Below, piece after piece: positions 2,183 through 45,100 of a stretch of 51,235 nucleotides of DNA (positions within the stretch are counted from its first letter, which is position 1; the number at the start of each line of letters is the position of its first letter). Both the position numbers and the translations under genes were made by a program. Origin of the DNA: Spirogloea muscicola (lineage: Eukaryota; Streptophyta; Zygnematophyceae; Spirogloeales; Spirogloeaceae); assembly GCA_009602725.1 (NCBI GenBank), contig WELB01000054.1, forward strand, positions 491,883 to 543,117, written 5' to 3'. The notes below the pieces were generated by a model that had not been told where the DNA came from, made no database searches, and saw nothing but the letters and a program-made list of their open reading frames with translations.

Positions 2183-3522
2183 CTAATTTGTCTTGCAGTT
2201 GACTACGGCAAGCTTGTGTTGTAGCTCAAGTTGGATCAACTTTTGAAAGGACGGCAACTTGGTGCATGCCACGATGTCGGCAAGTGGAATCTGCACATAT
2301 GGTGACAGTTACTCAGTCACAGTATCGACAAGTGACATTGACTTGCGGCAAAACGATGCCTCAACAACATGTATTGCGTTCAAGTCTTCCAACTCTTAAG
2401 ATACACAAATCAGGCTACAAGACTCTGCTGCCATACATCACGTAGCTTGCATGCAGTGCATGTACTGCACTACACAAGCCATTCTCCTCAGGACTCACAC
2501 TGGCTGTTTGAATAGCAGGTGGAGCTCCACTCTTCTTGTTTGCAGCAAGTTTTGCACAGCATTGTGAGGCGTTTGGCAGAAGGCAATACTTGAGGATGAA
2601 AGCAACACTAGGTTGCAGCTGTGGCCAATATACAAAGGGGGAGATGTGGCCAGCAAAGTTCGTCAGCACTCCAGCAGTCGTGTCTGCCTAGCAAGTACTG
2701 GGCAGTCTCTATGAGGTGAATTCAGCAATTTCTCAGCATGATAAACTCGCAAGTACGTGAAAATAGACCGCACCTGCTTGTCAGTGAAAGGACACTTGCC
2801 GGGAGGCCCAGGTGGAATTGTGTCTGTGCAGGCAGCGACGCACACAGATTGTGAGCTAATAGTTTGCCAGTATCCACAATCCAAAAATGCCCTGTTGACT
2901 GTGGGTCATTCACGATGGCTGACAAGCAGAAGATGAGAAAGGAAAGGCAAATGAGTCTCTGACCACTTAGACAGATTGCCTGATTACATTGTGGGGGCGG
3001 GGTTCTCTTCTTTGCAATTGGAGGCGGCGATCTCTTCTTTGCAATTGGAGGAGGCGACTTGTGGTGGCCACCCTTCTTCTTCGTGACCGGCGCAGCAAGC
3101 ATGCGCCTCGACGACAGCTCCACTTGGGACAGATGCTGGAGGGCTCCAGCATCTCTGAGCTTCAGGCCGGTCTGTATCACTGCAACGAGCACAGTCCAAG
3201 CCCAACCGTTTAGGAGTAATTATGGCCAGGACTACTGACCGTCTCACATTCAGGGTCTCCCAGTGGCTGCCTCATAGTGACGGACGGACAGGCAAGCTAG
3301 CAACTTTCCAGGTGACAGCGCAAAGAGCTTTGTCACATACAGGCCTTAGTACACTGCCTCAGTAAAAAATAACAGAGCAAAGCAATGCAAGGCATGGCAA
3401 GGCAAGTCAAGGCGGTCAGCATGATGACAGAATGGGGACGCACGCCTAAGGGCGGCTTCCTGCGCCGAGCAGCCGGACACAGCGCAGGCCAGGGCGGCGA
3501 GAATGAGCATGAGGTGCCTCAT
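2183..3522 (-). CDS. Small secreted cysteine-rich protein with SPPP-type linker (SCR-A)
   Basis: Family not recognised. Proposed exons on the minus strand: 3522-3444, 3179-2988, 2823-2774, 2618-2499, 2290-2183, giving 182 residues with intron phases 1,1,0,0. The first exon encodes a signal peptide (MRHLMLILAALACAVSGC). The second encodes a lysine-rich, proline-rich linker with two near-identical 27-base units (about 3005-3057) encoding SPPPIAKKR. The remaining exons carry six cysteines: KCPFTDKQ, a helix-like stretch ending KYC, a CC pair, IVAC and a terminal VVNC. The spacing is C-x17-C-x7-CC-x27-C-x22-C. The x17 and x22 distances are identical in SCR-B and SCR-C. The start is the ATG at the signal peptide, just inside a GC island. 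A longer exon 3 (2898-2774) is also in phase but is not conserved in SCR-B. The six-cysteine pattern resembles prolamin/ECA1-like folds only loosely. Role is inferred as extracellular or cell-wall. Confidence 0.68.
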
Positions 3523-3579
3523 TCTGTCGCTTTGGGCAGCCCTGCACACAAGCATGAGAGGTGGTCCCAGATGAGACAC

Positions 3580-4060
3580 AGTCAGAGCCGAGGTGCCTTT
3601 GCTTCGACCTCCACGGCGCACGAAGTGTTTTCGTTCCACGACAACTCCTGGCTGAGGCTGGAGGCTTCCGAAGAGGTCACAAGCCTCGCAGCCCCGTTCG
3701 ACCGAGGCAACAAGCGTCATCCCGAGCAAGGACTTCTCGGCAGCAGGCGGCATTCGTGAGGGGCAGACTCAGAGGCACATTCAGGGGGTCTACGCGCAAG
3801 GCACCCGTGCGCACGGGCAGAAGCGAGGTGACGAGGCAGCTCTGAGCGGCGAGGCAGAGCTCGGGAGCTCGGGGCCAAGGCGTCCGAGGCACAGAGCAAA
3901 GGCAGCGAGTGCCTTGTGAGCAGCGGACGGGAAGCCGTCAGGAGGCGACAGTCGGCGACAAGCGCGGGGAGGGAGGGCCAGGCGAGCTACGCACCTGGAG
4001 CGGCGAGGGGGGAGGGGCGCCGCCGCGGCGGTGGTGGGCGTGGGGCTTGGTGGGAAAGAA
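3580..4060. promoter_or_regulatory. GC island upstream of SCR-A
   Basis: GC-rich sequence lies directly upstream of the SCR-A start on the minus strand and ends in a short ccgccgcggcgg run near 4020. Its position matches the islands at the 5' ends of the other genes here, so it probably holds the SCR-A promoter and 5' UTR. No core promoter motif could be assigned. Confidence 0.45.
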
Positions 4061-4180
4061 GAAAGCGGCTGCTGATATGAAAGAATCGGCTGTGAAATGC
4101 CAGCCAGATGCATACAGGTGTTCCTGACGGAGCCGTAGGCTAGGCAGACAGGGCGCGCCCTCAATACCCCCGTGTCAGCA
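4061..4180. repeat. 120-base dispersed repeat (copy 1)
   Basis: Begins gaaagcggctgctgatatga, contains the stem-loop core ggctgtgaaatgccagcc and ends with the minus-strand retroelement C-terminal codons (cccccgtgtcagca). A copy differing at only a handful of positions lies at 34574-34692, and a more diverged one at about 48990-49085. Copies 1 and 2 both sit immediately upstream of the GC island of a minus-strand gene (SCR-A here, the U-box gene there). Confidence 0.8.
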
Positions 4181-4874
4181 GTAGGAAGTCAGATGAGCTG
4201 AGGGGAGGAAGAGCAACCCCGCTGCGCAAGCCAGAGGCTGCTGCAAGGGCGCGACCAGCGCGGCGGTGCAAAGCAAGCGCTTGGGAGCGCTGCAGGGACA
4301 TAGACAGTCGCATGCGGTAGCAGGACACCAGACCCAAAGGCACCGAGCCACCGGGAAGGGCAGCACCCTGCTCCCGGCGCCGCTGGTCAGCTTGAGAGGC
4401 CAGCAGCGAAAGTAACGAGGACCACCGACCCCCGTAACACCCATGGATGTCCATGGCCAGGGGGTAAAAGGTATCACCCGCCGGGTGGTCCTTGTACTTG
4501 TGCAGCTTCTTCCGTTCGGCTACCTTCACAGCGTAGCCGGTCTCAGAAGTAATGGGGCCCTTCGTCCGGAAGCTGTCGGTGAGGACAACGTCCATGAGGA
4601 GCCGCTTGCCACCTCCCAGGGGGACGCCGACCAGATCGACACGCCTCGTCCGAGGGACCCCATTGCGGAGGAGGAAAGGAGCGCGGCGGGAGATGGAGGA
4701 TGCGCCGGGCCGTCGCTGCGCCGTCGCTCGGCACTTCGCCGGACGGCTTCCTGGCTCGGCTTGGCCGCCCCCTTTCGTCGAAAAGCCGGGCTCCGTGCAG
4801 AGCCCCTGCCCCTTCCGATAGGCCCTTGCCGAGACCGTCAGCCCCACGGATAATGCTCGCTTCTCTAACGCCAA
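4161..4874 (-). mobile_element. Non-LTR retroelement 3' fragment with restriction-like endonuclease domain
   Basis: A continuous 237-codon minus-strand frame. It contains MDVVLTDSF, AERKKLHKYKDHP, PLAMDIHGCYG and RMRLSMSLQRSQALALH, and ends LLLTRGY-stop. The D of DVVLTD followed by the E-x-K of AERKK fits a PD-(D/E)XK restriction-like endonuclease core, as found at the C-terminus of R2-type elements. No reverse transcriptase domain is present, so the copy is 5'-truncated. The frame is still open, which suggests recent insertion. It lies between the divergent genes SCR-A and SCR-B. Confidence 0.75.
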
Positions 4875-5640
4875 GGCGGCTCCCCCTGCACTCGGCCCAC
4901 TTTTGGAGCCCCCCCGGTCTCCTGGCGCGCGGCGCTCCGTCTCGCCCCGTTACCTGGAAGCATGGGTGGCGGGCCCGCCGGCCCTGACCCGGACGTCGGG
5001 GGCCGGCGTCCGGGGCAGGCGGGCCGTCTGTCGGGCTGTCTGCCCGCCGCACCCGCCCGCCGGCTGGCGCCGTCGTCGGCCGGGCCGGCCGAATGTCGGG
5101 CGCCAACCCGGTCAAAGGGCCGGCGGTCCGCGGCCAGCTCGGCGGCAGGATGCGTCGGGCCCCCGACGACCGCCCCCGACGACCGACGCTGCCCGACGCG
5201 AATGGTGGGGAGATTCGTTCACGGAAGCTGGCTGCAGTACGGACGCCCGCCAGCCTGCCATGTGGCACCCGCCATCCGGCCTCCCAGTGGGCCGAGCCGG
5301 TGCCCAGGCGCTTCTCACAGAGGGCCTCTGGGCGGCGCTCCCTGGCTCTCGCCTTCAGCCACCCCCTGCACCTGCACTACACTCGCCTGCGGATCGCCCG
5401 CAGCCGCCGCCGCCGCCTCCGCCGCCGCCGCCGCCGCCGCCGTGCCTTCAGGGAGTCCAGTGACGGCCACCCTCCTCACGGCGTGCTTAAGGGTGCGGTG
5501 TCGAGCCCCGGGGTCGCGGCGAAGCTGCGATCGGGCCGCACAGCCAGGCCTCCGGGGGCGCCTCGTTGATCAGCCGCCGTCTGCCGTCTCGGAAGCCCAG
5601 GCCCGTCGTGGAACATACACAGTGGAGGACGCCCAGTCGC
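4875..5640. other. GC-rich island with (CCG)n tract, upstream of SCR-B
   Basis: About 770 bases of GC-rich sequence, with a (GCC)n run at roughly 5400-5444. Long open frames occur on both strands, but they overlap one another and translate to low-complexity proline, arginine and alanine runs with no domain. The island ends about 440 bases before the SCR-B signal-peptide exon and may contain its promoter or an untranslated first exon. Confidence 0.45.
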
Positions 5641-6076
5641 TGTGAGGGTTGTTGACGTGCTGGCATCGCTTGGTGGTGTCCGTCTGCGGGGCTCCCTTTG
5701 AGGCGCTTCGACTCGAGCCGCAAGGAGTGTGTGCATCCTAGCGCCCGAGGTGCAATGTTTGCTTCTCTTGTCAAGATTGGTACCTCGCTGCATTCTATGC
5801 TTGGCCAGCGCCTTGCTGACAGGATTGTCTTGACTCTGCTCGAGGCTCTAGACTTTCTCGATACCTGGTACGAGAAGCCTTTGACATCAAAGAGAGGTCA
5901 GGTTACGTCGAGGGGCTGCACTGAAAACCAATGAACGCTACGCCAGCGGCCAGCAATGCGAGTAGCTATGTACGACGTCAACTGGTGCCGTATATTTCCT
6001 CATCAGATCGTCAACTTTGACATGCTGTAAAGCTTCTCTGTTGCACTGCAGATCCAGTCGACCATTCAAGGCTGTG

Positions 6077-7466
6077 ATGAGGATAAGAGGTCTATGGACA
6101 ATAGTGATACTTCTACTCTCCTCCTTTTCGACCTTCGCATCAGCGTATCCTGGTATGTTAGCAAGTAGCTTGGGCTGCAAATTAATCAAGATGTATATAT
6201 GCCATGCTCCAGAGTTGGGCCACTCTGGAGCTTCTCCCTAACGATGCAGAACCTGTTTGTTGGAGGGGGCAGACGAGTCAGGGCATGGGGTGCATCAGAA
6301 AGTCCCAAATGTTGTTGTCATGGATATGGGTGTGCATGTCTGTGACGTGCCTCAAGAAAGGAGGCTCCACTACGTAGATAGCAAGCCTTGAAGTACTGAC
6401 AAGGACAAGCAGAAGCCGTACTAGAGGAAAAGGTCCAGTCGATGCACATCGATGCTCTGCCTGAGGCTTCATTTGATCGTTTAGTGTTGCACAACAGATG
6501 GAGTTCTGCAATCAACCCAAAGGATAAAGACGGGAGCGAAGCATCATGCATCCTTTCCACCCCCACCATCCAAGCACAAATCCACGACAAGGAAAGTAAC
6601 ACCGCCTCACGCAAGCCAGGGGGCCAGTTCCTCCAAGAAGAGCCCTCCACCAAGCACAAAGCGAGTTCCACCAGCAGGTCTGTCTTTTACTTGTCATGGC
6701 CCTCATCAACTCAAGGTGCTGGGGAGCATTGAAGAGAGGTTGTAGTGGTATAATCAAATAGAATCAGACTTACACGTAATTTGTGGTGAACAAGCTTGGT
6801 AGAGTGACCAGCACAGAAAGTGGGCACCTGCCAGCAGCTACATTGCAGGCAAGGATCTGCACATAGTAGCACCATTGTCGTTTGCTGGGAGTCTCTGTGT
6901 GCTGACGTAAATTCTCCTTTACTTGCTGGCTCAGGAAGGAAGTACGGTCGCTGTCCAATGGATGAAAGCCAGGTATACATGTGTTTGTCAACTCTGGACA
7001 CCCAAAGTTAGGACGACATTGCAATATCCAGAGAGCTTTGGGCAGCGCCTGAGGAGAACCACTTATGCTTTGGGTGCAGGCCAAGGTGATTGTCGACAAG
7101 CTGCTACAAGTCTGCGTGAAGCGAAGCACAAAGTCTCTCTGCTGCAAGTGGCAAGCCCTTGTAACCAAGGCCTTTCCAGCTTCACAGAACGTGAGCATCT
7201 CGTACACAAACCTGTCCTCGAAGGCCATGTCTGGTCCTGCTTCTCATTCCTGCACGGTTGAAGTCTGAATCTTGATTCCTTCATATGTCTACTAGAGCCT
7301 AGTACCACATGTTGTAACTGCCATACATATCTTACACAGTGCACGTTGTCATGCTGTGTGCCAGCTCGATGCGAAAGATGCGGCAGCCTGTTTACAACTT
7401 CCATCTTTTCAGACATTGTACCAGCTTGAGTTGAAAGGCACAGTGACTATCACAAATTGCAATTGA
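6077..7466 (+). CDS. Small secreted cysteine-rich protein with proline/lysine linker (SCR-B)
   Basis: Paralogue of SCR-A and SCR-C; family not recognised. Proposed exons: 6077-6152, 6498-6677, 6935-6972, 7080-7190, 7365-7466, giving 168 residues with intron phases 1,1,0,0 exactly as in SCR-A. Exon 1 is a signal peptide (MRIRGLWTIVILLLSSFSTF). Exon 2 is a lysine/serine/proline linker with FPPPP, VTPP and KKSPPP. Exon 3 ends RCPMDESQ, matching KCPFTDKQ of SCR-A. Exon 4 has LLQVC then LCC. Exon 5 has AACLQLPSF, LYQLEL and TITNC before the stop; SCR-A has VACTKLPSF and IQLEL at the same places. Spacing is C-x17-C-x8-CC-x23-C-x22-C. Splice sites are canonical, and the exon 3 acceptor follows a pyrimidine-rich tract. 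The long overlapping frame 6442-6732 is out of phase and was not used. Confidence 0.68.
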
Positions 7467-8600
7467 GACCATTGCACATCACTTGCTTCAAACCTTTGTC
7501 TGCAAATAGAAACGCGCCCAATAGGCAGCAATCTGCTCTGCCAGACAGAACCAGCTGCCATTTAGGTATGTAAGTCAATCATGTCACATGGCAGCTTGCA
7601 TGTCATGGCAAATTTGCTTCTCGAAGATCCTCAAGAAAGTCAGAGGCGAGGTGAAGGTTATGAGCAGTATCGACGCACATCAGCACTTAGCTCAACGACC
7701 ACATCCGGTCGCAGATCCGATGCAAATGTCTCGAGTGCCATGTGATATCATCGACAACTAGGAGTTGCCAGGAGTTGCCAGGAGTTGCCAAGAGATTAGA
7801 GCGGCTCTTGCAGGGGCGATAGCTATGAATTAACTGATGACATGCTGTTGGAAAGAGATTGGAGGCTCAAGCAGAGAGAAGTGTACGCCGTTAGCCAGAA
7901 GCGCTGGCAATGTAGGACACAGTGATCTTGTGTCACCTGGACTGTTGACAAGGTAGCAAAGGTGCAGCCTCATGATCATTAGCTGCCCAATGCGCGCATA
8001 GCACATAGGCAGGAAGCTCTCAGCAAAGTGTGCATCTCATGTGAGCAAGGGTCGCCAGGCACAAACCGCAGGAAGGTGGTGGCGAGTGTTGCTCTGCTCG
8101 GAGGTACGCAGCAGGGCTCTGGATAAGCGTGTATCTGGTGATGGAGGGGCAAAGGGGCCTAAAACATATACAAAATGTGAACTGCTTGCTGCCATGTCGA
8201 CCTGCTCAGCAGCCGCTGGTCAGCTTGTTAAGGTCGCTACTCGATGCCCAAATACTGGCTGGCAGATAGTAAGCCCCACCGCCACCATGCAGAGCTTGTC
8301 CAGCTCTCCGGTGCAGACTATGAGAGCTTGAGCTAATACGCAACCGCGCAAGAACAACACAAATGCTGCCGGCAAGCGAGTCTCGACTAGAAGCACATCT
8401 TCACAACGCGCACTTCCTAGATTGAATGTGACGCTCTAAAAACAAGGTCGGAGACGAGGACTTCTGGGACCGTAGATTTAACTGCAGCTCGTAGAAGATG
8501 ATGACAGCGGAAGTAGTCGAAGTGGTGCTCAACTCAACTCGTCATGCACTACAAACAGCGTATATAGCAATTCAGGTCGAGGCTGGGGCTTCGTGCGCCT
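7467..8600. other. Interval without recognisable gene; three tandem 10-mers
   Basis: No coding frame, RNA gene or mobile element can be supported. A perfect tandem triplication of the 10-mer ggagttgcca occupies 7761-7790. The rest may include the 3' UTR of SCR-B and upstream sequence of SCR-C. Confidence 0.5.
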
Positions 8601-8960
8601 CCGTGACAAAGGAACAGCGCTTCCAAATTGACAGCGGTGGCTGTGAGAGGCCAGCCCAAAGGACAAGGTCTCCGTGACAGCCACACAGAACAAGGAATGA
8701 GGTCATCCAATGAGGTCCTCCAAGACGAGCCGTTCTATCCATATTATATATATCAGCAGCCGCATTCCTCTAAGTGTTGCTCACTCGCGGGTGCTGAGCT
8801 TACCTCTGCATCGTCTCGTGTTTTGTAGTGTAGTCCTTTTTCGACACCTCATTTCTTTGGCTTTGGACGGTGTCCATTCTTTTTGGGCTGGCTTTGCCGG
8901 CCACTCTTCTCTATGGGCGAGCACGTTCTTCTCAGATGATGGGGACACAGGTTGAGAGAA
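8600..8960. repeat. Stem-loop repeat copies and retroelement 3' UTR debris
   Basis: A forward stem-loop copy (ggctgtgagaggccagcccaa, about 8639-8660) is followed by a reverse copy (gggctggctttgccggcc, about 8886-8903). The reverse copy is followed by the ctctatgggcgagc word that flanks reverse copies elsewhere in the window. No coding part of the retroelement remains. Confidence 0.65.
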
Positions 8961-9119
8961 GGCGGCCACGGACAACAATCGGGGGAGAGCCCGCGGGCAG
9001 AATGTCGTGGACTCACCACGTCACCGATGAACAAGGGTGGTGTTGCAAGATTGGCCGTCAGCTGCACTGGTACTCTGAGATAAGGCAAGGGAGCAGGAAT
9101 CTCCTTTCGGCGTTGCTGC

Positions 9120-9560
9120 CAGTAAGCGTCGGTCAATGCCCGCCCAAGGCGGCGGGGCCTGGGGATCCACGCAATCGTTTCCAGTCGCCGTCCCAAGCGC
9201 GCCAGCCGCTCGACCCGCCGTCTGCTTCTGACGGTCCTGGCCCCATGAGAATATCTACCGAGGGTCCGTAGTTTGACTGCCGTACCGCCCCGTGGCCGCG
9301 CGACCTCGAGCAGCCGCCTGGCCAGTCCGCCGCCGCCGCCGCTCGCCGCCGCCGCCGTNGCCGCCGCCGCCGCCGTCGCCGTGTTGCGCGCACCCCTGCC
9401 CCGCCCGCTGCGACCGCGTCGCTGAGCCGCGTTGAGGGCACCTCGGCCCGCCGGGGCGCGCACTGCTCAGAGCCTCTGCACCTAAGCGTCCTCGTCGCAG
9501 CACAGCCGTGCGCCTGCAGTCGGGCTCCGCCTGCTTTGACAGCTCTTCTCGCCTCCGGCC
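9120..9560. promoter_or_regulatory. GC island with (CCG)n run upstream of SCR-C
   Basis: GC-rich block with (GCC)n near 9328-9382, including one unresolved base at 9359 that indicates difficult sequencing. It ends about 280 bases before the SCR-C start. By analogy with the other islands it is the probable promoter/5' UTR region of SCR-C. No specific motif assigned. Confidence 0.45.
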
Positions 9561-9834
9561 AGTCTATTCGGCTCCCTTCTGCAGCAGGCCAGTGTCCGTT
9601 CTTCGCTGCATTAGCTCTCGGTCCTTTGTCCAAGCTAGGAGGCAAGTCTGTTGTCAGTTATGATGATAGCTGCAGAGTAATTATGGTACTGTTGTTTGAC
9701 CTGCTGCCTTCTCATTGCATCCATATTGCAAATCGTATGAGCGCTACATGAGTGCTTCAGACATTGTTACTCACACGCCAGCATGACGATGGCGAGTTGG
9801 TGCTTCTGGTCTTCCAGCTTCCCGAAACCTCTAG

Positions 9835-10894
9835 ATGGCATCTCGGGGAGCAGTTGCTGCGGTCTTGTGCCTGCTGGCCCTGTTTGCTCTTGCCTGTAAG
9901 TCCAGTGTGGCTCACCAATTCCTCGATGTTCTGAAGACTTCAAGGTTATGCTCTTCGTTAGGTCAGCCACAGCGGTTGTGACTATTGTAAGCCGGTGTAG
10001 TGAAACGAGTATAAGCTATTTCTAACCAGGATGCACAAGAGTTGTAGGGCCACTTGGGCTGTAGATTCTGTCACGGCGTCATGTGACAGTCAAGTGATTG
10101 CTGACTTATGCTGGCAATGCCTCTGCTGCCAGATGATGCTATTATCTTGACAGTCATTGCCCTTGTCATGCAGCTCTTGAAGCAGAGGCTGCGGGACACC
10201 ATCCTGCTGGTGTAGGCCATCATCCTGTCAAACCAGGTCATCACCCCCCTGGTTCTGGTCATCGGAAGTGTCCCGTGACGGCCACTCAAGTATGTCAACT
10301 CACAGAACCTTGGTAGTGACCTTAGAGTGCTATTCAGGGTGCTTAACATTCTATCAAGCTGTCCTTCCGAGAAGGACTCTGCTTCTTTGAAAAAGATATG
10401 GCATAGCAGCCAAAAGGTCTCAGGTTGTCTGCTTTCTCACTCTGGGCCCCCCGTGTCTGAATACATGTGAATGACTTCTCTCTTACTTCTGTATTGCCAT
10501 GGCAGATTCAGCTACTTATTAACCAGGTTCTGAGCCTGTGTTTTGATCCGACCCTCAATACAAAGTGCTGCACATATATCAAAGCACAAGCGAAGGAGTA
10601 TCAAGCAGTAAGTTGGGACAGGCTGACATTGAAATACAGATGTGCATAGCTCGTTTTGGCATGAAGCATGGCATGCGCACTGCGACACCAGGCTGCTGTA
10701 CGTCGTGCAAGCAATTGTTGTTCCTCCTAAGTTTGAACCACAAACAAAGGGCCTCTATTAACACAGTATTGGCTCTTGGCTTGCAGTTCCTGACATCAGC
10801 AAGTTATGCGCCCTGCTTTCAATATCCAAATGTAATTGCGGCCTTACCAAAGCTTCTACCTTTGCAGGGCAGACTGAATGCATGTCTTAAATAG
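9835..10894 (+). CDS. Small secreted cysteine-rich protein with His-Pro-Gly linker (SCR-C)
   Basis: Third paralogue of the SCR cluster. Proposed exons: 9835-9895, 10174-10289, 10506-10607, 10787-10894, giving 128 residues with phases 1,0,0. Exon 1 is a signal peptide (MASRGAVAAVLCLLALFALA). Exon 2 fuses a short GHHP-repeat linker directly to the first cysteine motif, HRKCPVTATQ. Exon 3 contains QVLSLC, then TKCC. Exon 4 contains YAPCFQYPNV and ends LNACLK-stop. Cysteine spacing is C-x17-C-x8-CC-x21-C-x22-C. The linker is much shorter than in SCR-A and SCR-B and changes from lysine-proline to histidine-proline, while the cysteine spacing is kept. The separate small linker-to-cysteine exon of the other two genes is absent. 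All splice sites used are GT-AG. Confidence 0.65.
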
Positions 10895-17915: not shown

Positions 17916-20900
17916 ATGCCGCGGAGGCGCAAGACGCAGCCGGGAGCCGAGGCCGGCGGCGCCGAGCGCGCGCCCGGCGGCGCCGGCCAGGCGCCTCGTC
18001 CCGCTCCTCCCCAAGGTGGCAGCTCCTCTTCGCCCATGGCCATTGACGCCTTCGCCCGTCCTGCAATCACGCCCACATGGCTCCTGCTGGTGTTGCCTGG
18101 ACAGGCGTGCTTGCTTGCAGTGCCTGTTCTGACACACGCGCCGCCGAAGACGAAGCTGGCACGACTAGGCCAGCACGTTCTGATGCCATTTTGCGGCATG
18201 CGCAGCTGCCGAGGTTGCAGCTGCGTCTCCTGCCCAGCCGGCCGCGCCTCCCCAGCCGGCCGCAGCTCCCCAGCCGGCCGAGCCAGTTGTCAGGGACTTT
18301 CAGGAAGTCAGGGCTGCACCACCGCCACGACCATCGCCAGAGCAACTTGCTGCACAATTTGCAGCGCAGACCATCTCCTCAGCACCACAAGCTGCTCCTG
18401 GGTTGCCCGCGGCTGCCCCACCGCAAGCTCCACAGCAGGATATCGCTGCTTCCATTGCACCGTCGCAACAAGCTGAAGGTCCGCATCCCTTGCATCTGCT
18501 GGGCATGCATGCATGGTCTTTGAAGACATAGCTGAAGAAGGAGTTGATGAGCACACCATAGCAAGACCAGATGTGGTGCCAAAGACCCACTATTTAGCAC
18601 AAGGTGTGCTTAGTGGAAGCAACTGCTTGACCCTGTCTTAGCGGCTTCGGCACTCATTGCGGTGCCAATCTAAGTTGCTTCTGTGATGTGACCAGGGGGT
18701 CAACCCAGCTCCCTTGCTGTTGTTCCCCCTCCACGCCCTGGATATGGGACCATTGGACGTAAAGTCGTCTTGCGCGCCAATCACTTCGCAGTGAACCTGC
18801 AAGATATCACGATCTACCACTATGACGTCGCCATAACACCCTCAGTTACTTCCAAGGTCGTGTCCATCTGTAGGACATCCTGTATACCTGCTTCTCATGC
18901 AGAACAGCTTCTCCTGAAGCCTGATCCCACTTCCGTGTTGTAGACGACATTGTGTGCCTTGCGCATAGCATGCATTGTTGCCCTTTTCATGTGAGCGAGC
19001 AGATTCATGCTCCAAACTAGCTGTCAATGAGCAGGTGCACGTGTCAATACATTGTCAGCAAGCGTTGATGGGGTCAAGTCTGGGATGACGTGGCTGCTGA
19101 CTCTGCACCCAACTCTCTTGCAGGGAGTTAATCGTGCAATACTAGAGGAGCTTGCTAAAGAAGCTGGAGCTGCGGAGTTGGGCAACAGGCACCTTGCTTA
19201 TGATGCAAGCAAGAGCTTGTTTACAGCAGGACAGCTGCCTTTCACGCAGAAGACCTTCACAGTCAATCTGCCCGACAAGGACGGTTCAAGAGAAGGACGG
19301 CTGAGAACCTTCAACGTCGCCATAAAATTGGTCAACACTGTCGGTTTGGAGCCTTTGTGGCAGTTCCTACGTGGTCGGGATTTGGAAATCCCGCAGGAGA
19401 TTTTCCAGGTCAATGCATGGCTTTTGCCCCTCAAGACTACCGGTTGCTTTTGTATTGTACACTTATTCATTTGCTACAGGCACCCAACATGTCGTTGTCT
19501 GATTGGTCTATCTGGCGTCTTTACAGGCTTATGACATAGCCTTCAGAGCAAGTTCAGCGAAGTCTTACATCCCAGTAGGACGATCATTCTTCAGCGACAG
19601 CTTGGGTCAAACAGATCTGACTGGTGGGCTGCGCTGCTATCAGGGCTTCTTTCAAGTAAGCAAAGCCACCGCGGCATGAGCCTGGTCACACACTTTCACC
19701 ATCTTGACACATCCCTAGCAGAAGCTGAGACATGCTCTTCCTACTGTCTATGCTCCCCCGGTCTTCTCTCCTCTCTACTTTGGCATCCTGGTGCTCCACA
19801 AGCTATGTCATCCGTGCATCCTTGTATCTCAGGCTTTGCTCGTGACAATCACAGTATCAATTGCTGTATAGCACACTGATTGCAATGGTGGACGGCATGC
19901 AGAGCCTTAGGCCTACACAGCAGGGTCTTGCCCTCAATATTGACAGCTCAGCCACAGCGTTCTTCGAGCCGCTTCCTGTAGTCCAATTCGTTGAGAAGTT
20001 GCTTAACATGAGGGGCCCACTACGTGCCCTCCAAGATAGGGAGCGCGTCAAGGTCAGGAAGGCACTGCTTCGTCTGCAAATTACTGTCACACACCGTGAA
20101 ACGCCTCGCAAGTGAGTTAGCCAGTAATTTTGTGTGACTCTTTGTTGCCCTTGGACGACCTCTTGACGGCACGCTGCCGCATATAGTCAGGACTCTCTAA
20201 GAGATTTTTCTCTACAGGCACTCTGGCTTGCTCAAGTACATGGCAAGCCCGAGCATATTTCTTAAGGTGATTGCAAGCTGTCGCAGACCTTACATATTCA
20301 CTGAGAATCTTTTGCAATCAGGTACCGTGTAACAGGTGTGACACGTGAGCCGGCACAAGATTTACAATTTGAAGCAGATGGAGAGAATGTGTCGCTCATT
20401 GCATACTACCAGCAAAAATACAACTACAAGATCAGATTCCCACAGCTTCCATGCATAGTAGTTGGAAGCAAGAAGAGTTGGTTGCCAATGGAGGTCTGTG
20501 TGATTGCTAAGGATCAGAGGTACCTAGGCAAGCTTGGTGAAAATCAGGTACCATCACCCTTATTTACTCCTGTGTCTAGAAGGACAGCAAGTGCTTGATC
20601 TGCTTTCTGCTGGAGGTTAAGGACTGCAGCCACTGGATGCCTTTACCAAAACTGGTATTGGTTCAATGTTGCAAGACGTGCATGATGCTAGTAATATTTG
20701 GTGAGCTGCAGGTGAGGAACATGTTGAAATTCACATGCAAGAGACCACCGGATAGAGCACGCTTCATTCAGAATCTTGTGGCTGGAGCTCAATTTGACAG
20801 GTAGTGACAGCTCCAGGTATCTCTTTGCAAGTGCTGTATCAAGCATGGAATCATTACCAAAACACACCACAGGAATGCCTATGCCTAGTCTCTGTGTTTG

Positions 20901-26265: not shown

Positions 26266-26387
26266 GGCGCTCGTGCGCGGGAAGCATCGAGTCAGCGACC
26301 GCTGGAGGGGCGCCGCACGGGCGACCAAGCCTCGACCCCGGCGCCGCCCCTGCGGCGACTGCCACGACCGCGACCGCCGCAACCGCC

Positions 26388-26676
<289 letters not shown>

Positions 26677-27365
26677 CGTCGAGTGTAGCCTAGATTGGCA
26701 ATGTTTTGAAGCAGAGTGTGGAAGCGAGGACCCAGACAGCCAAAGATGTCGATTGCAGCTGGCAGGAGTTGATCGCATTGGGGGTAATCGGAGTAATGCC
26801 GCAGTTTTCTTTGCTCTGCTCCGCCCACTGCATGCCCAGCAATGTGTGTTGATGCTGGGCCTTTATATGCCTCCGTAACAACAACGTCGACCAGGGCCCG
26901 TGGTCCTCCACCAGGTTGCACGCCCACAATGTCAAGTGTGCGGCGATGATGATGTCCCTGGGCGTCCGTGGTGATAGGCATGATATTGTTGACTTCCACG
27001 ACCGCACGGTAGCCGGCGTCGCGCATCAAGCCCGCCAGGGCATCGCGAAGGAGGTTGTGAATGCCCAACACTTCTGGTCCAGTGGGGCATCTCAGCATGT
27101 GAGTAGCGAGCACAGCACCCTCTGCACGGAAGCCGCACTCGCACTGGCGCACCCCAATCAGGCAATTAGGTGGGAGGCCGAGGAAGAGTTGAAGCGATGT
27201 CCGAAAGGCCTCGGAGCTGATGCTGAAGGCGTTGGCGACGGGGGGAGAGGTGATCCAGTCAGTGGCACCAGGTGTGGCCAGAGAAGTGAGTCTTGCCAAG
27301 CTCCTCGGATTGTTCTGAATCTCTGGCAGCCTCCTCCTCAACCTTATGCGGCGTTCGTCTTCCAC
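26677..27365 (-). mobile_element. Non-LTR retroelement 3' part with C-x-C...H...C motif and endonuclease domain
   Basis: The best-preserved copy of the family. The minus-strand frame reads from ATPGATDWITSPPVANAFSI through FRTSLQLFLGLPPNCLIG to a zinc-knuckle-like CECG...ATHMLRC. It continues with IHNLLRDALAGLMRDAGYR, then VDVVVTEAY, AEQRKLRHYSDYP and AIDIFGCLG. It resembles the region after the reverse transcriptase in R2-like elements: a C-x-C-x(n)-H-x(4)-C motif followed by a restriction-like endonuclease with D and E-x-K. The frame then enters the assembly gap. The upstream (5') part is missing. It occupies the spacer between the divergent MED31 and V-ATPase E genes. Confidence 0.78.
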
Positions 27366-27539
27366 TGCCGTAACAAAGAAGAGAGCGCTAGAAGTGTCTG
27401 CACAGCTTGGTGTGCCTGTTCCATTATAGAATGCGGCTCTCGCTTAGTTTGCAGCGCTCGCAAGCATTGGCTCTTCATCAACGTGCAGGGCGTGCTCTAA
27501 GTCAGGCCTCCGGCTTTCGTGGCGGCGCTCCAGCTCCCC

Positions 27540-30622: not shown

Positions 30623-33600
30623 TCAGACAGTGTCAGGGGTCCTCATGTGCCGCGCTAAGTAGCTGCGGGAGCAGGTCTGGCCAAGGGCAAGGTCCAGGGA
30701 GGGCCTGGGAATGTCAGTGCAGAGCTTGAGGAGCAATGATACCCTCTCCCTCCCCCGAGGGCTGCCTTCAGAAATCATCTTCATCAATAGCTGCACGGCT
30801 CCTGACTCCTGCATATGCGCCTTGAAGCGTACATTGCCCTTTCCCAGCTGCAAGTTGCCAACATATAGCAAGTCAAGATATCATACAGTCTCATAACATC
30901 CTTGCTGACTACCCCCAGAGGCTGAAACAATTGACTAACACTATGGAATGAATCAATCTGACCGGTGAGAAGGCAAGCATAAAAGGTTGGATATATGCAT
31001 GCACAATGGGATCAATATATTAATGACTGTCCAGCTGCACACGATAAAGACCACTCACCTGCAAGAGAATAGCCACAGCTGCCTGTCGGATGTCAACATC
31101 CTCAGACTTCAAAATCTTCATGATCACACCCATGCCTCCAGCATCCATAATCGCAGTCCGACCGTCAGTGCTGGCTGCCAGATTGGCTGCAAGGTACACG
31201 ACCATGCTAATCAATATATGCTACAATTGTGCACGAGCTGATGCTCAGCTTCGATGTGCATCTTCATGTACTCAGCACATCAGTCTGCAAAGATGCCCAA
31301 CTTTGTAACAGGCTGAAGAAGAAACCAAGCATCATTGGCAATTGTGGACCTACTGGTAAAAGACTAAATTCCTACACACGACACTCACCCAGGATGACCA
31401 TGGCATGTGTCAAGAGCGAGTCCGGGGCTGCCAATCGATTGGTTGACATACAATGTCAATCAGTTGATTGCCTTAAGAGATGGTGTTGCATATGCAATGA
31501 GATGTGAGACCAAGGTCCACGCCAAGGTCCATCTATGATATGTGAGACTCCTGAAATAGGACCAAGGACATGCACAAAGCTTGAAGGTGCAAAAGGAGGT
31601 TTCAAGGGACCCACCTAGAGATGGTCTCGTGGAAGTTGCCCTGCTAACAGTCGCCAACAACTGGGGCACAAGACCTGCTCTTACAAGCTTCCCTTTGTGA
31701 ATCTGTGCAAAGGAAGTGAGAAGGTAATCGATTGTGAGCAATACAATAGTCAAGGCCAGGCTGGCATAATCAAACAGAGGGAACCATAGAGTACATGACA
31801 TATGCAAACATTGGGAATTTGATAGCAGAATGCAGTCTCATTCAGCACCCCTGATGCAGCCAATGAGGTTGGTCAGGTGAGATGCTGCCTTATGCTGACT
31901 TGCAACAGTTCATGGATGCCAAAGTCACCTGGTTATGGGAGAGCTTATGCAGGGCCCTGATGCAGTCTTTGTGAGCCCTTGGACCACCGGTGATGAGAAC
32001 TTGCACCAAGGGAGGAATGGCCCCCGCAGATCCAATCATCAGTCGATTATCCTCTGACTGCAGCTAGCAAAAGAGCAAGTCATATTAGTGAGCCAGTACA
32101 ATGACAGAGGAGCAATGCTTCTTTGGTATCTCAATCAGTACCCCAATACCTTGCTGACCACTCTTTGTAAGTAAGCTTGCATGCTGTGTCCCCCAACATA
32201 TGCTGGCAGAAGGTAGGCAGCAAATGCAGGAGGGGAGGTGTACGGTCTGCTGACCTGGCAGAGGCTGAAGATTGCTCCAGCAGCATGTTCTTGCACCTCA
32301 GCGTCAGAGCACTTCAGAGCTTGCACAAGAACCGGGACAGCACCAGCTTCCGGTAGCAAGCGTTTATTCTGGTCATCAATCGATATATTGACGATGGCCG
32401 CAGCTGCATTTACCATGACTTCACGGTGCGGAACATTCAGCAGTTGCACCAGGATGCCTAAAATGACTGAAGCACCAAGGACAGCGCGGTTCTTGGCACT
32501 GTGTTTGACAAGGCGCCGGACTTCTCCTGCAGCCCAGGCCTGTCATGCGTGGAAATGTACAGCGACAATGAGAACAACTGAGGTCGCCATAGGGGTTGCT
32601 ACAAGCCACAATCAATATATAGGCTGGCGAAGGTGGCCATGACCAGACTCTAGACATGCATGTATGTCGGCATATCGATGCCAAAATGAGGAGACAAACA
32701 GGTGTTGCAAAGCAAGTACCTGATTGTCAGGGTCCTCATAGTCACTGAGGCACACAAATAAATCCTCAATGTCGTTGTCAGTCACGTCCTTCACCTGCTG
32801 GTCTTCTAGTCCACCCATCGAGACAGTCCTGGTTAAAGGACTCCTTGAAGATGAGGCAGGGGACGCTATGGAGCTCTCTGAGCATCGGCTGGGGTCGCTT
32901 GAGAGACCAATGTCTGAATACGATCGGCGCGAGTGGCCTCGCTGGTGAGCGGGCTGCAGCCAATGTGATGAACAATGTGTCAGAGCGTTGGCTGAAACTA
33001 CGTCGTGCAGTGTGCCTTACCATAAGACCACAGTTGCGCAACCATTGTCCTTGCATCAGCAGACTGAGGAGTCGGTCAGGCTTGGCTAGGCACTGACCTG
33101 CCCTGCATGTCGTACCATGACGTGGCCAGCATGATCAGGAGGGTGGACGCTGACAGTGAAACTTGCTGGTGACGAGAGAGGGGAGTCTTCTGGGATGGAG
33201 GGCGAGGTTGGGTATGAGGACGAGTCCGGAGAGCTCCCGCCACTGTCGACATCTGCACACCGGACAAAGTGCGGGAACCTGTCCCTACGAACATTCTCCA
33301 CCCTGCCTGCGTCTCTTGTCCCCGAGCCATCGTCGCACGTAACAGTGCCCTGCAAGGTCAACTCCTCCAGCCTCTGCACATGGATGGCTGGATCTGACCT
33401 CCCTGTTCCACACTTCCTGTCGTCCAGACCATATTCTGAGGGTGGCTGCGGAAGCGGGACGCCATGCTCCTCGCACCAGCCAGCAATCATAGCTTTCACT
33501 GTGTAGTTCGGCACAACGGTCATGCTTGTGAGCGGTTGCCTCGTCTTTGGACACGTGGTGTTGCCTTGAGCAAGCCATGCCTCGATGCATCTGCAAAAGC

Positions 33601-34206
33601 GCAAGGCAGAAAATGTCACGACATGCATCGTGCTTCACCTGCTGCTTGGACACAACCCCCACCTGTGCTTCCCCTACATGTGAACAGTAACTACAAGGTG
33701 TCGTCACATTCGGACGAGCATGTCAACCAGGAGTACTGCGCCCTTGAGCACTCTATCTCACTAGGTTGCTCAATCACGTCATCAAGAATGGCGGAATGAA
33801 GGGCATGCCTGCGCTCGTAAGTTTGCCCAGAAGAGACTATGACGGGATCAGCCATCAGCTCCAGCCAGATGGGACATCGCATCTCCATTGGAGGTATTGC
33901 CACGTCGGATGTCCTTGGACTGGCATATCTAGCAATTTCTCCAGGCTGCTCTGGGGACCTTGGTGCAGCAGATACCCTGTCTTGCATTCCACAGCTGCAA
34001 CTGAAAGCAGGACAGCTGCAAGGTAGCAGCTGCTTTTGCTTCGAGGTGAGCTCCGGGCCTTCGGCGGCCGCACCTAAGGTGCAATCGCTCAGTATGATGG
34101 TTGTGTCGAGCGAGCCTTTCTCCTTGCTGACACTGAGCAGGTGCGCGTCGGCCGACGTCAGGCCTCCGAGCTGGCGAGCCCGCTCGCCGGACTGAAGCAA
34201 GGCCAT
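30623..34206 (-). CDS. U-box/ARM-repeat E3 ubiquitin ligase (PUB type)
   Basis: Exons on the minus strand: 34206-33809, 33590-33098, 32953-32720, 32539-32255, 32057-31929, 31702-31615, 31427-31389, 31186-31059, 30847-30623; 672 residues. The U-box spans about residues 104-178: IPPMEMRCPIWLELMADPVI, SGQTYERR, CIEAWLAQGNTTCPKTRQPL, VPNYTVKAMIAGWCEEHGV. A serine-rich linker follows. Then come ARM repeats from about residue 375 (VRRLVKHSAKNRAVLG, VMVNAAAAIVNISIDDQNK, VQEHAAGAIFSL, GSAGAIPPLVQVL, MVILANLAAS, AGGMGVIMKIL, SGAVQLLMKMI). U-boxes recruit E2 enzymes and ARM repeats bind substrates or receptor kinases. The first intron appears to use a GC donor (cag|gcatgc), and no GT donor restores the frame. 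The N-terminus is shorter than in PUBs with a full UND region, so an upstream exon is possible. The usual serine in CPISLEL is tryptophan here. Confidence 0.92.
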
Positions 34207-34573
34207 GGCGCAGGCCCTGCTCAGCTGCCAGGACGCCCTCCCGTCGCCGTGGCCCTGCCCGGGCCGGGCCCAGAGGGGCCTTCCATGGTCGCCAGCGGCA
34301 GCCCGCTAGTGCCGCCACACGCCTCCCTCCTGACAAGGGACGCCGCACCGTCGGGGGCTCGAGCGAGAGCTTGTCACCGAAGAGCCGGCGGCGCGAGGCG
34401 GCGCGACACGAGCGCGCCCGGGCCCCGCCTGGGTGCAACGGCCAGCGCCAGGCCGAGGGTCCGCCGGCGGGGGGAAGTGCCAAGGCGATGAGATGGGTGG
34501 GGGGGGGGGGGCGGCGAGGCGGAGTGTCACGTAGCGGCTGATGATGGGGAAGAAGCGGAGAGCTCTTCCGGAA
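34207..34573 (-). promoter_or_regulatory. GC island upstream of the U-box gene
   Basis: GC-rich sequence directly upstream of the U-box gene start on the minus strand, with a G13-type homopolymer at about 34498-34510. Likely promoter/5' UTR. It could also hide an upstream coding exon, since the U-box gene's N-terminus looks short. Confidence 0.4.
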
Positions 34574-37043: not shown

Positions 37044-37664
37044 GCAGTGTTTGTCTCACATGCGGAGCTGGATGTTTTGAAGTCTAACTTTAAGACAGGT
37101 ATGCTGTACAAATACTGCCGTCCAAAGATCGACAGTAGAGAGGGGTCTTTTATGAATGCCGAAGGTCTTAGGCACCCTATAATGGAGCGCATAGATACGG
37201 GGACAGAGTACATCCCAAATAACATAAGCATTGGGGAGGGCTACAACGGGATCATTCTGTACTCAATGAACGCAGGAGGAAAGACAAGCCTGTTAAAGGC
37301 CTGCGGGCTATCATTGGTGCTGGCACAAATAGGGAGTTTTGTACCAGCCTCGAGCTACGTCTTCTCCCCATTTAAGTGCATAATGACGCGGATATTAAGC
37401 GAAGACAACAGCCTAAAAGGGCAGTCATCTTTTGTATCAGAGATGTCAGAGCTCAGAGGTTTATTAAAGAGAGCCGACAACAACACACTCGTTCTTGCAG
37501 ACGAGATTACGCACGGTACAGAGCATACGTCCGGATCTGCAATATTTACTTCGAGTGTCATTACGCTAGCAGAGAGGGCTGTGAATTTTGTCTATTGCTA
37601 TGGATCTTCTGAAACAAAAATTAATGCCTTTGAGCAGTGGCAGCAGAAAGATCTGTCCAAGTGA
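37044..37664 (+). pseudogene. Truncated MutS-family ATPase, closest in motif to giant-virus MutS
   Basis: A single open frame of about 205 codons without introns in an intron-rich neighbourhood. It starts inside the connector (AELDVLKSN, YKYCRPKID) and continues LRHPIMERID and YIPNNISIGEG. A Walker A-like NAGGKTSLLK follows, then VLAQIGSFVPASSYVFSPF, TRILSEDNSLKGQSSFVSEM, SELRGLLKRADNNTLVL and ADEITHGTEHTSGSA (Walker B). The RIL..DN..KG.S.F..EMSEL and PASS stretches match MutS proteins of nucleocytoplasmic large DNA viruses better than plant MSH1 or MSH2-6. The 5' two-thirds are missing, and the frame loses similarity where the conserved THL.E stretch should be. No start codon is needed by the reading; it opens after a stop at 37041. 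MutS proteins recognise mismatched DNA and couple this to ATP binding. Viral origin is inferred. Confidence 0.7.
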
Positions 37665-41854: not shown

Positions 41855-42141
41855 GAAGCCAATACACCCGACGGCGGGCGAGGGCCCCCCCGTCGCCGGC
41901 GCCAGGTGCGCCGGGGAGACGTCGCTTCCACCGGCCCCTGGCCGGCTGGGGACGGCAGGTTGGCCCCCTCCTGTTCACCTGGAATAAAGCCCCCATAACC
42001 CTAGCGGCCGCCGCCGCCGCCGCCGCCGCCGCCGTTGGCCGCCCCGCTCGAGGCCGCAGCCTGCCGGCTCTCGCGGCGCGCAGCGTGGAAGGAGCGCCGC
42101 GAGCGCGGTCGGGGCGCGGCCGCCGCCCGCGCCTCCGCGGG
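41855..42141 (+). promoter_or_regulatory. GC island with (GCC)n run, 5' end of the receptor kinase gene
   Basis: GC-rich sequence with a (GCC)n run at 42007-42034 precedes the ATG at 42142. An in-frame ORF extends upstream to 41716 but is low-complexity. The ATG at 42142 is preferred because it begins a signal peptide. Confidence 0.45.
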
Positions 42142-45100
42142 ATGGCTCGCAAGTGGCCGCCGACGCTCGCCTTGGCTGCTGTGGCTGTGGCGAGCATCGT
42201 CGCTGCGGCGCTGGCACAGCCGACGAACCCGCCAGGTCTGCCACACTGGCACGGCTTCGTGGCATTGGCGGGCCATGGCGGGCTGCACGTCCCCAGTGAT
42301 GAGCACATCACTGAAGCACCATGACGGCCACGTGCTGTGCTTCATTCTTCTGACCAGCAGCCGCGCGAAGCTGGCTCACATCCCCATCACGGTGGCTCAC
42401 AAATGTGCAGGCTTCATCAGCATAGACTGCGGCCACGATTCTGGCAACTACCCTGTGGGCAACATCATTTGGCTAGATGATCAGGACTACACTGGTGGAA
42501 CGATTGGTCCTCTTATCAAGACGCCCACTGAGCAGGCGTTCATGGAGGCCACGATTCGTATCTTCCCAAGTGGCATAAAGGGCTGCTACAATATCCCCAT
42601 CTCCGAGCCCACTCGCTACTATGTGCGGCTCACCCATTGGTACAACAACTATGACTCTCTGGGCGCGCCTCCAATCTTCAACATTTCTCTTGGGAACACG
42701 TTTGTCTACCAGAATGTCATGGACGACGTTTCTATCAACACGCTAGAGTTCATATACAATGCCAACACGTCAGTGTACATCTGTCTGCTGAAGGTGTGCA
42801 TAAGCTGCTGTGTCGGATCACAACCTTTTGACTTGCCCTCCGTTCTGTCTCTCAGACAAGAGTGCGTGCATCCTTACACTGACATTGCTGTAGAAAGGCT
42901 GTGCTAAAGAACGTGTAAGGTGTCCCTCACAATCTCTAGACTTCAGGGCAACAGTGACAGAGCCAAGACTCACAGACAGAATTTCGTGACTGCCTATCGT
43001 TGGAGTGTCTGGGAAATTGTTGGGTCATTGTGTCATTGTTGCTTCTCCCATGTTGAGTGCGTCATGGAGCCCTAGAGTGCTCATCTGATGTCAGTCGCTT
43101 GCCTCTCTTCAGGTCAAAGAAGTTCCTGTCATCAGTGGTCTTGAGCTTCGCAACCTCACCTCTGCGAGCTACAACAATTCCGCTTACAGTGACCAGATAC
43201 TGTCCATGTGGTTTCGCTTGAATTGCGGGTCTGATATTTCCGATTCCAGTGGGGACGTCAAATATCCAAGTGACCCTCTGGATCGCATTTGGAGTCCCGA
43301 TGGCTCACAGTATGGGAATATCGACATCGAGCCAGCGGACGGGCTCGTTGCTTTGCATATTGCAAAGAACCTTACGGGCACTTTTGGCCCTCCAGATGAA
43401 ATTCCAGCGTTCATCATCAACACTGCGCGCTCTGTGGCTGAACCAGGCAAAAGCCTCAATTATACCTTCAATGATTTGAGCTCTCCTGCAACTTACATCA
43501 TATACCTCTATTTTGCCGAGATTGAGGAGGGAGTTGTGGCTGGTTCGCGCATCTTTGATGTACGGCTTAACGGGCAGACGGTGGCCAGTAAGTTGTTCTC
43601 ATACCATGGCCCTCTTCTCTGCAGCAAGTCTGCAGCAGGGAGAGAAAGAATACCCGCCCCTCAAATGTCGCAGATTTACTAAGCCTTTACTTGTACTAAA
43701 CCCAGCATGGAAGACTGGTGCAAAGCTTCTTACCCAAGCTCACAATTTGTCCAACATGCTCCTCTTATTGATTCTTAACCATTGGTCCTGAACAGTAGCC
43801 TTGTACTCGGTCAGGTGGCGTGGACATCTATGCCAGGGTGGGGAAGAATACGCTTTTTACCCTGTCTTTCACAGTCAGACTTGAAGAGCTCATGTTCATT
43901 GTCCTGGAGCTCAAACCCGTTGGAAAGTCGAAGCCTGTCATCAGTGGCATTGACCTTGAACAACTTGTCCCTTTGGCAAATACTACAAGCTCATCAGATG
44001 GTATGTTTGCTTGTCGGTCGTACTTCTTGATGTACTCTTGCAAGTTGGACTAGCCCCGTATTGCGCACTTGTTTCTTGCGGTCATTAAGTGCAACTCTGC
44101 AGCGCTCACACCCAAGGTTGATGTACATGAAGAAATCAACAACTTGGAGGCAATGCCTGTAGTTCGTCCCACCTGAACCAACCTTCTCGACCTGAAGATG
44201 CCAAGCTTGGCTGACCATCTTATTGACAACATCAGAAGAGAGAAGAGCACGAAGCAGTGACTGTCTAAGCTTATCCTTGATTCTTATCTCATGCAAGCAG
44301 CACAAGCGCTTCAGGATGCATATATCACATGGAGTAAGCCTGCACAGTTGCAAGATTGGATGGGTGATCCATGTGAACCTTACCCCTGGTCGGGCGTTTC
44401 TTGCAACTTCAGCACGACTCCTTATAGCGTCAATGGCCTGTGAGTTCAGCCGTTTGTTGCCAGGCCCTTCGCTACAGTAGCTACTAAGCCAAGCTTTGCA
44501 GCTTTGCACTGGTGCTTCTGGTGCCTGCTTTTTCTTCTGGATCAAGTCACTGGTCGAGGACCTCTGACATCTCAATTCTGGAGGGTTTTGCTACCTATGG
44601 AGGTAGAAATAGCAAGAGCTTCAGCCCTGACTTTTAAATTCTTGGACGCAAAACAGGAATCTCAGCAGCTACAATCTAAGCGGCAGCGTTCCCCCTGCAC
44701 TTGCAAACTTGACTCAGCTGAAGAGCCTGTGAGTTCTCCACCACATCGGTTCTTTCACCCATGAAGTGCTCATACATTCTTAAGCAGTTGGTGATAGATC
44801 AATCAGGCACTTTATGCTTCTGCCGTGCTGTGCTTTGCTTCATATACAGCAGGCAAATTTCACACGTGCAAGTAGCTGCATCTCGTCACATCTTCTGACC
44901 TTCTTGCACCTAAATGTTGGTGCATCAGCTCTCTTGATAACAACTACCTCAATGGACCTATTCCCGGAGCTCTTGGTAGCTTACCACAGCTGAAGACTCT
45001 GTAAGCTGAACCTTGGCCTCCTGCTTAGGCTCTCATTTGCCCATCATGATCTTTTTCCAGGGCCGTTGATTAGTTGTTGTCACGGTGTTCTAGGTGGTGG

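Follow-up and report, generated by a model that had tools for sequence, protein, structure and literature searches.

Three clustered split genes encoding probably secreted six-cysteine proteins with low-complexity linkers in Spirogloea muscicola

The stretch of Spirogloea muscicola DNA analysed in this work (hereafter the window; 51,235 nucleotides of contig C54) harbors a cluster of three split genes, SCR-A, SCR-B, and SCR-C, whose presence in the DNA is confirmed. Reading and translating the window places SCR-A at 2183-3522 on the minus strand (five exons, 182 amino acids), SCR-B at 6077-7466 on the plus strand (five exons, 168 amino acids), and SCR-C at 9835-10894 on the plus strand (four exons, 128 amino acids). 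Each gene encodes a predicted signal peptide, a low-complexity linker, and a C-terminal head with six cysteines at fixed spacings, and a fourth gene with the same plan, gene D, is located elsewhere in the genome. The proteins might form a family of secreted hybrid proteins associated with the cell wall or the mucilage, in which a cationic tether is joined to a disulfide-stapled head; we give this reading about an even chance. The libraries searched do not contain the SCR family, and proteins of its general kind (a secreted tether plus a cysteine domain) are known.

The gene models that an earlier note had proposed from the letters of the window were rebuilt to the base, with intact reading frames and GT-AG borders at 11 of 11 introns. 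Past residue 20, exactly six cysteines are present in each protein, with spacings of 17-7-CC-27-22 in SCR-A, 17-8-CC-23-22 in SCR-B, and 17-8-CC-21-22 in SCR-C, which reproduces the invariable x17 and x22 claimed by the note. The intron phases are 1,1,0,0 in SCR-A and SCR-B and 1,0,0 in SCR-C. The plan common to the three genes consists of a first intron of phase 1, a phase-0 intron after the motif C-P-x4-Q, i.e., at the exon boundary that the note had placed after the first cysteine motif, and a phase-0 intron between the CC pair and the fifth cysteine. The statement that the intron phases agree holds for these common introns; however, SCR-C does not possess the intron that separates the linker from the first cysteine in SCR-A and SCR-B.

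In SCR-A (minus strand), the predicted signal peptide is encoded by exon 1 (3444..3522), whose GT donor is kept in three of three copies and whose product has a hydrophobic core. The basic linker with SPPPIAKKR units (exon 2, 2988..3179), the first cysteine within KCPFTDKQ (exon 3, 2774..2823), and the second cysteine with the CC pair (exon 4, 2499..2618) were assigned from the model and the comparison of copies, and the fifth and sixth cysteines (x22) with the stop codon (exon 5, 2183..2290) from these and the profile test. In SCR-B (plus strand), the same parts correspond to exon 1 (6077..6152; predicted signal peptide, from model, copies, and hydropathy), exon 2 (6498..6677; Lys/Ser/Pro-rich linker, from model, copies, and composition), exon 3 (6935..6972; first cysteine, RCPMDESQ) and exon 4 (7080..7190; second cysteine and CC pair), both from model and copy comparison, and exon 5 (7365..7466; fifth and sixth cysteines with x22, and stop, from model, copies, and profile test). 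In SCR-C (plus strand), exon 1 (9835..9895) encodes the predicted signal peptide, as judged from model, copies, and hydropathy, and a single exon 2 (10174..10289; model and copies) combines the GHHP linker with the first cysteine, KCPVTATQ; the second cysteine and the CC pair (exon 3, 10506..10607) and the fifth and sixth cysteines with x22 and the stop (exon 4, 10787..10894) follow from the model and the copy comparison.

Protein searches of the genome (153,112,186 bases, 471 contigs) with the heads of SCR-B and SCR-A disclosed gene D in three copies, on C54 (270.6 kb), C5 (693.3 kb), and C359 (47.9 kb). The C54 copy (C54:270545-271851, minus strand) lies about 222 kb from SCR-A and has five exons with the phases of SCR-A and SCR-B, whereas on C5 the gene and the cluster are about 200 kb apart. 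With a spacing of 17-9-CC-25-22 and the CPx4Q and LPS motifs that it has in common with SCR-A and SCR-B, gene D brings to four the genes in which x17 and x22 occur together with a phase-0 intron following CPx4Q and another separating CC from the fifth cysteine. It was detected through similarity of exon 5 and not through the spacing, but its exon borders were set from the conservation of its three copies and from the family plan, so that x17 is a good check though not a blind one, while x22 falls within one exon. In the C359 copy, an in-frame stop codon interrupts the linker exon (C359:48687-48815, minus strand).

Genome searches with SCR-C and gene D returned no further convincing member. For four weak matches (L022, L031, L040, and L047), no acceptable second exon was found by tblastn against SCR-A, SCR-B, and SCR-C. 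Two-exon profiles built from the copies and searched in the window and in 90 kb of the other loci retrieved the 12 copies and nothing else below E 0.14; since the introns force an exon-by-exon search, remote members may escape. Outside Spirogloea, the search for relatives covered prokaryotic genomes only, where none of 67 pattern matches for SCR-B was confirmed, and the family is perhaps restricted to one lineage. In a leave-one-out test, the exon-5 profile recovered SCR-A, SCR-B, and gene D each ahead of every non-member, whereas the exon-4 profile recovered only gene D first, SCR-A and SCR-B falling behind at least one non-member; SCR-C was recovered by neither profile. SCR-A, SCR-B, and gene D thus appear to recognise one another by sequence, and the homology of SCR-C to them is less than certain. 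Its membership is proposed because of x17 and x22, CPx4Q, the two phase-0 introns, the phase-1 intron after the signal peptide, and its position beside SCR-B. The three-member family of the earlier note is therefore wider than described, with gene D added and all genes in three copies, and its common exon plan and spacing stand, although SCR-C is not tied to it by a sequence profile.

The SCR cluster is present three times in the genome, on contigs C54, C5, and C41. A stretch of SCR-A matches C5 at 93% and C41 at 88%, and the SCR-B and SCR-C gene regions are 87.6-93.4% identical among copies. Over 30 kb each, C5 and C41 are collinear with the window across SCR-A, SCR-B, and SCR-C up to about 23 kb, with interrupting insertions. 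More in detail, collinear blocks join window positions from about 900 to 24800 to C5:888001-918000 and C41:81001-111000, the insertions differing between copies. Such blocks on three contigs are consistent with a genome triplication, an event mentioned for S. muscicola in the accessible part of PMC7994812. Transfer of the exon borders of SCR-A, SCR-B, and SCR-C to C5 and C41 by alignment showed that none of the nine copies, the window included, has lost a splice site, its frame, or a cysteine; with gene D, which brings the copies to 12, all 45 introns keep GT-AG and 11 copies have an uninterrupted reading frame. No indel occurs in the exons of SCR-B and SCR-C (three comparisons each). In SCR-A, exon indels of 3 and 27 bases are located away from the stop, and two bases at the very end differ through the differing stop positions of the copies.

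The ratio of nonsynonymous to synonymous divergence (dN/dS, simple counting) in the three copy pairs is 0.85, 0.65, and 0.41 for SCR-A, 0.40, 0.21, and 0.33 for SCR-B, and 0.29, 0.25, and 0.44 for SCR-C. The description of the family as diversifying, if selection is meant, does not agree with these values, which are below 1 in nine of nine pairs. Exons diverge less than introns in six of six pairs of SCR-B and SCR-C (p 0.0098 to 5e-9) and in three of three pairs of gene D, whereas no clear difference emerged for SCR-A (Fisher p 0.12, 0.51, and 0.10), which is the weak point of the comparison; SCR-A is weakly constrained or relaxed. A pooled dN/dS by domain (0.35 for signal peptide and linker, 0.45 for the cysteine domain) is given no weight, as the D copy on C359 entered it truncated at its stop. 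When each column that varies among the three copies of A-D is counted once, with the interrupted D copy among them, variable columns number 46, 22, and 69 of 640 at codon positions 1, 2, and 3, respectively, and 517 of 3105 in introns. Positions 1 and 2 together have fewer variable columns than introns (Fisher p 3e-27) and than position 3 (p 1e-5), which is itself below the introns (p 1e-4); all these p values are guides, adjacent sites and copies being non-independent. That SCR-A, SCR-B, and SCR-C are real genes beyond chance is therefore argued by three observations: two further collinear copies keep splice sites, frames, and cysteines, a fourth gene shows the same x17, x22, and arrangement of introns, and codon columns vary less than introns over A-D.

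The proteins are probably secreted, a prediction from hydropathy: in A, B, C, and D, N-terminal 12-residue peaks range from 2.33 to 3.03, against values of at most 1.63 beyond residue 30. The arrangement of predicted signal peptide, low-complexity linker, and six fixed cysteines described in the note was borne out. With cleavage sites placed visually and the D linker entered with a surplus G (the charge is unaffected), the linkers of A, B, C, and D have net charges of +13, +13, +1, and +8 and isoelectric points of 11.5, 11.5, 8.4, and 10.5, respectively. Ser-Pro3-4 motifs are located in the linkers of SCR-B, gene D, and the window copy of SCR-A, the linker containing SPPP in six of the 11 intact copies, and Tyr-x-Tyr is present in two of the 11, both of gene D. 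At 2992-3057 of the window, a 27-base tandem repeat corresponds to the nine-residue unit SPPPIAKKR, and the 27-base indel of SCR-A is one further unit in the C41 copy, indicating that linker length changes by repeat number. This is the change that is visible, and by eye the four linkers keep a Lys/His/Pro theme; the suggestion that the linkers are exchangeable is not supported.

The idea of a secreted tethered protein derives from the charge and the SPPP motifs of the linkers together with the literature on hybrid proline-rich proteins (HyPRPs) and extensins. The SCR proteins resemble HyPRPs in the signal peptide (predicted in SCR), in the variable basic N-terminal domain rich in Pro, Lys, and His, in the C-terminal cysteine domain, which begins with C-P in both, and in the clustering of paralogues. 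They are unlike HyPRPs in having six cysteines, no CxC, another spacing, and introns inside the cysteine domain. An N-terminal region of the HyPRP type, i.e., a signal peptide followed by a basic, Pro-rich, variable domain, was recognised by composition only, and most weakly in SCR-C. According to the portion of PMC2216038 available, the N-terminal domains of potato HyPRPs are mostly repetitive, vary widely, and owe their alkalinity mainly to Lys and His, and they are joined to conserved cysteine domains; tandem gene multiplication is noted, and seed plants were the only group in which HyPRPs had been found up to 2007. As for chimeric extensins, the likeness resides in Ser-Pro3-4 in the linkers of SCR-B, gene D, and the window SCR-A and in Tyr-x-Tyr in gene D. 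In the excerpt of PMC4769139 at hand, Ser-Pro3-5 is linked to hydroxylation and glycosylation and Tyr motifs to cross-linking, and at least two Ser-Pro3-5 motifs define an extensin; unlike these proteins, only three of the 11 intact SCR copies (the window SCR-A and two D copies) have at least two SPPP, and in the two D copies one of the two is within the cysteine domain.

If this reading is correct, the SCR protein would be secreted, its six cysteines would form three disulfides, and its cationic linker, with Ser-Pro3-4 in SCR-B, gene D, and one SCR-A copy, would be hydroxylated and would hold the protein in an acidic wall or mucilage, to which the Tyr-x-Tyr motif of gene D might add a further hold. 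The stapled head would then be the specific working part, engaged in ligand binding, in contacts with a partner protein, or in self-assembly. The protein might therefore work like a HyPRP, but with a head other than the eight-cysteine motif. Two observations weigh against it: the SCR-C linker consists only of Gly/His/Pro repeats, with its net +1 and no SPPP, and the C5 and C41 copies of SCR-A are also devoid of SPPP.

The family had been called unrecognised, and the libraries agree: no convincing match was obtained in Pfam, NCBIfam, or the PDB. No Pfam family exceeded the printed cut-off for the full SCR proteins and heads, and the alignment scan gave nothing below E 0.12; the best row was PDGLE at E 0.013, whose 15.8 bits fall short of its cut-off of 27. 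NCBIfam, a prokaryote library, returned no match, and the PDB sequences, queried with whole SCR-B, whole SCR-C, the head of gene D, and a profile made from 10 of the 12 copies, gave no convincing one, a viral fusion protein at E 5.7 being judged chance. Three PHROGs families (E 0.28-0.42) were also taken as chance. The HMMER filters remove most matches above about E 0.1, and remote kinship could escape these searches. Among the matches listed, the literature search retrieved no paper on the SCR family.

The earlier note considered a relation to prolamin or ECA1 folds as only suggestive, and the comparisons made here do not support it. On this view, the head might be a far-diverged member of the prolamin superfamily, of the non-specific lipid transfer protein (nsLTP) or ECA1 type, with one disulfide lost and a role in lipid binding or fertilisation; we consider this unlikely. 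The distance from the first cysteine to CC is x25-27 in SCR against x23-24 in nsLTP1, from CC to the next common cysteine x21-27 against x21, and then x22 in both. This parallel is real but partial: the second cysteine lies eight residues further than in nsLTP1, and 11 of 11 intact copies have six cysteines and no CxC, so that the eight-cysteine motif is not present. With EC1/ECA1 proteins (PF05617), the SCR proteins share the six cysteines, predicted secretion, and the EC1 cysteine order C-C-CC-C-C; the EC1/ECA1 spacing is different, these proteins are not known to have a basic linker, and SCR proteins do not match PF05617. In the part of PMC8702097 available, EC1 proteins have six cysteines and the cotton EC1 genes no predicted introns, whereas the SCR genes are split. 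Green-algal nsLTPs, on the other hand, have introns inside the motif, and in Chlamydomonas two of the genes are neighbours and a Pro-rich region precedes the first cysteine, according to the accessible sections of PMC9832785, whose Table 1 as available includes no zygnematophyte. SCR proteins are like them in (predicted) secretion and in several introns in the cysteine region, but have six cysteines instead of the full eight-cysteine motif with CxC. No SCR protein gave a row for PF05617, PF14368, PF00234, or PF14547, within the limit of the filters mentioned. In the genome, PF05617 had one match over the cut-off, in another frame of a region read as cytochrome P450, and PF00234 five matches, all judged chance, the one over the cut-off being a 73-residue open frame with C, CC, C but without CxC; PF14368 and PF14547 had no match here or in control genomes, so that an absence of lipid transfer proteins is not implied.

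Profile alignment with hhalign scored the head at 8.39 against nsLTP1, 8.42 against the soybean hydrophobic protein, and 13.41 against nsLTP2 (E 0.078), the last over just eight columns around CC. Against a pooled profile of nsLTPs and the hydrophobic protein, the only one for which controls were made (60, keeping the cysteines), the score of 9.09 is within the control range (median 9.22, maximum 15.01). Known relatives score 26.3 (nsLTP1 with nsLTP2) and, when the two nsLTPs are aligned to the hydrophobic protein, 13.8 and 16.7, and the method is weak at such distance. Periodicity was examined in four segments picked by eye, at two angles, with uncorrected p values. The 13 residues that precede the sixth cysteine have, in A, B, and D, a moment of 0.59 at 170 degrees (column shuffles, p 0.005) and of 0.20 at 100 degrees (p 0.62), i.e., strand and not helix periodicity; SCR-C alone gives p 0.07 at 170 degrees. 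Behind the first cysteine there is a weak helix moment (p 0.07 with shuffled columns, p 0.02 with shuffled rows), and no helix periodicity was found ahead of the fifth (p 0.96). In our reading, LPSxQ in the last segment would be a short turn or helix, and a stretch such as QLEL-KG-TVTIT a putative hairpin. The strand-like character of this segment counts against a prolamin or ECA1 fold, and against the four to five helices that surround the lipid cavity of nsLTPs, although the same test finds neither period in the C6-C7 segment of nsLTP1 (p 0.68 and 0.43) and is thus blind to the helix there.

The basic linkers, the predicted signal peptide, and the clustered cysteine-rich paralogues could also befit defence peptides, with the linker as a propeptide or as a portion of a cationic antimicrobial protein; this is somewhat less probable still, given the dN/dS of 0.21-0.44 between copies of SCR-B and SCR-C, the finding of only four genes, and the lack of any known antimicrobial family among the Pfam rows. 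That small, cysteine-rich, predicted secreted proteins act as signals read by a receptor seems improbable: malectin-like ectodomain exons do exist in the window (42005-43682), but this is proximity only, that gene beginning about 31 kb past SCR-C. Decayed genes, or models assembled from exons by chance, would account for the little constraint on SCR-A (dN/dS 0.41-0.85, with no clear gap between exon and intron divergence) and for the D copy with an in-frame stop; this explanation is very improbable in the face of the 45 conserved introns, the 11 open copies, and the low variation at codon positions 1 and 2.

Besides the malectin-like exons (plus strand), the window contains exons for argonaute N-terminal (19031-19534, plus), U-box (33086-34305, minus), and MutS V (37044-37664, plus) domains. 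Three open frames on the minus strand (498-1055, 4161-4949, and 26292-27443) have in common a motif like Y-x-D-x-P-x2-D-x3-P-x-A-x-D-I-x-G-x2-G and perhaps belong to a single family of dispersed repeats; no Pfam match at E 0.01 was obtained for the first two or for 114 residues of the third. A run of 121 T followed by an N stretch extends from 26391 to about 26690 (167 N in the window), and a perfect two-copy tandem repeat of 28 bases is located at 46875-46931.

Returning to the wall- or mucilage-associated hybrid proteins, the head could tentatively be regarded as a new disulfide-stapled extracellular domain, made of short helices and a C-terminal beta hairpin and borne on extensin-like basic tethers in an algal lineage near land plants; this is possible, though doubtful. 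If true, the hybrid proline-rich architecture would have arisen independently of the version with eight cysteines known from seed plants, or earlier than it. The cluster also illustrates how easily small secreted cysteine-rich proteins encoded by split genes are overlooked. Should other zygnematophytes share the SCR family, it would supply candidates for wall or mucilage proteins in the closest lineage to land plants, and it could be tested whether wall proteins composed of a tether and a stapled head arose more than once.

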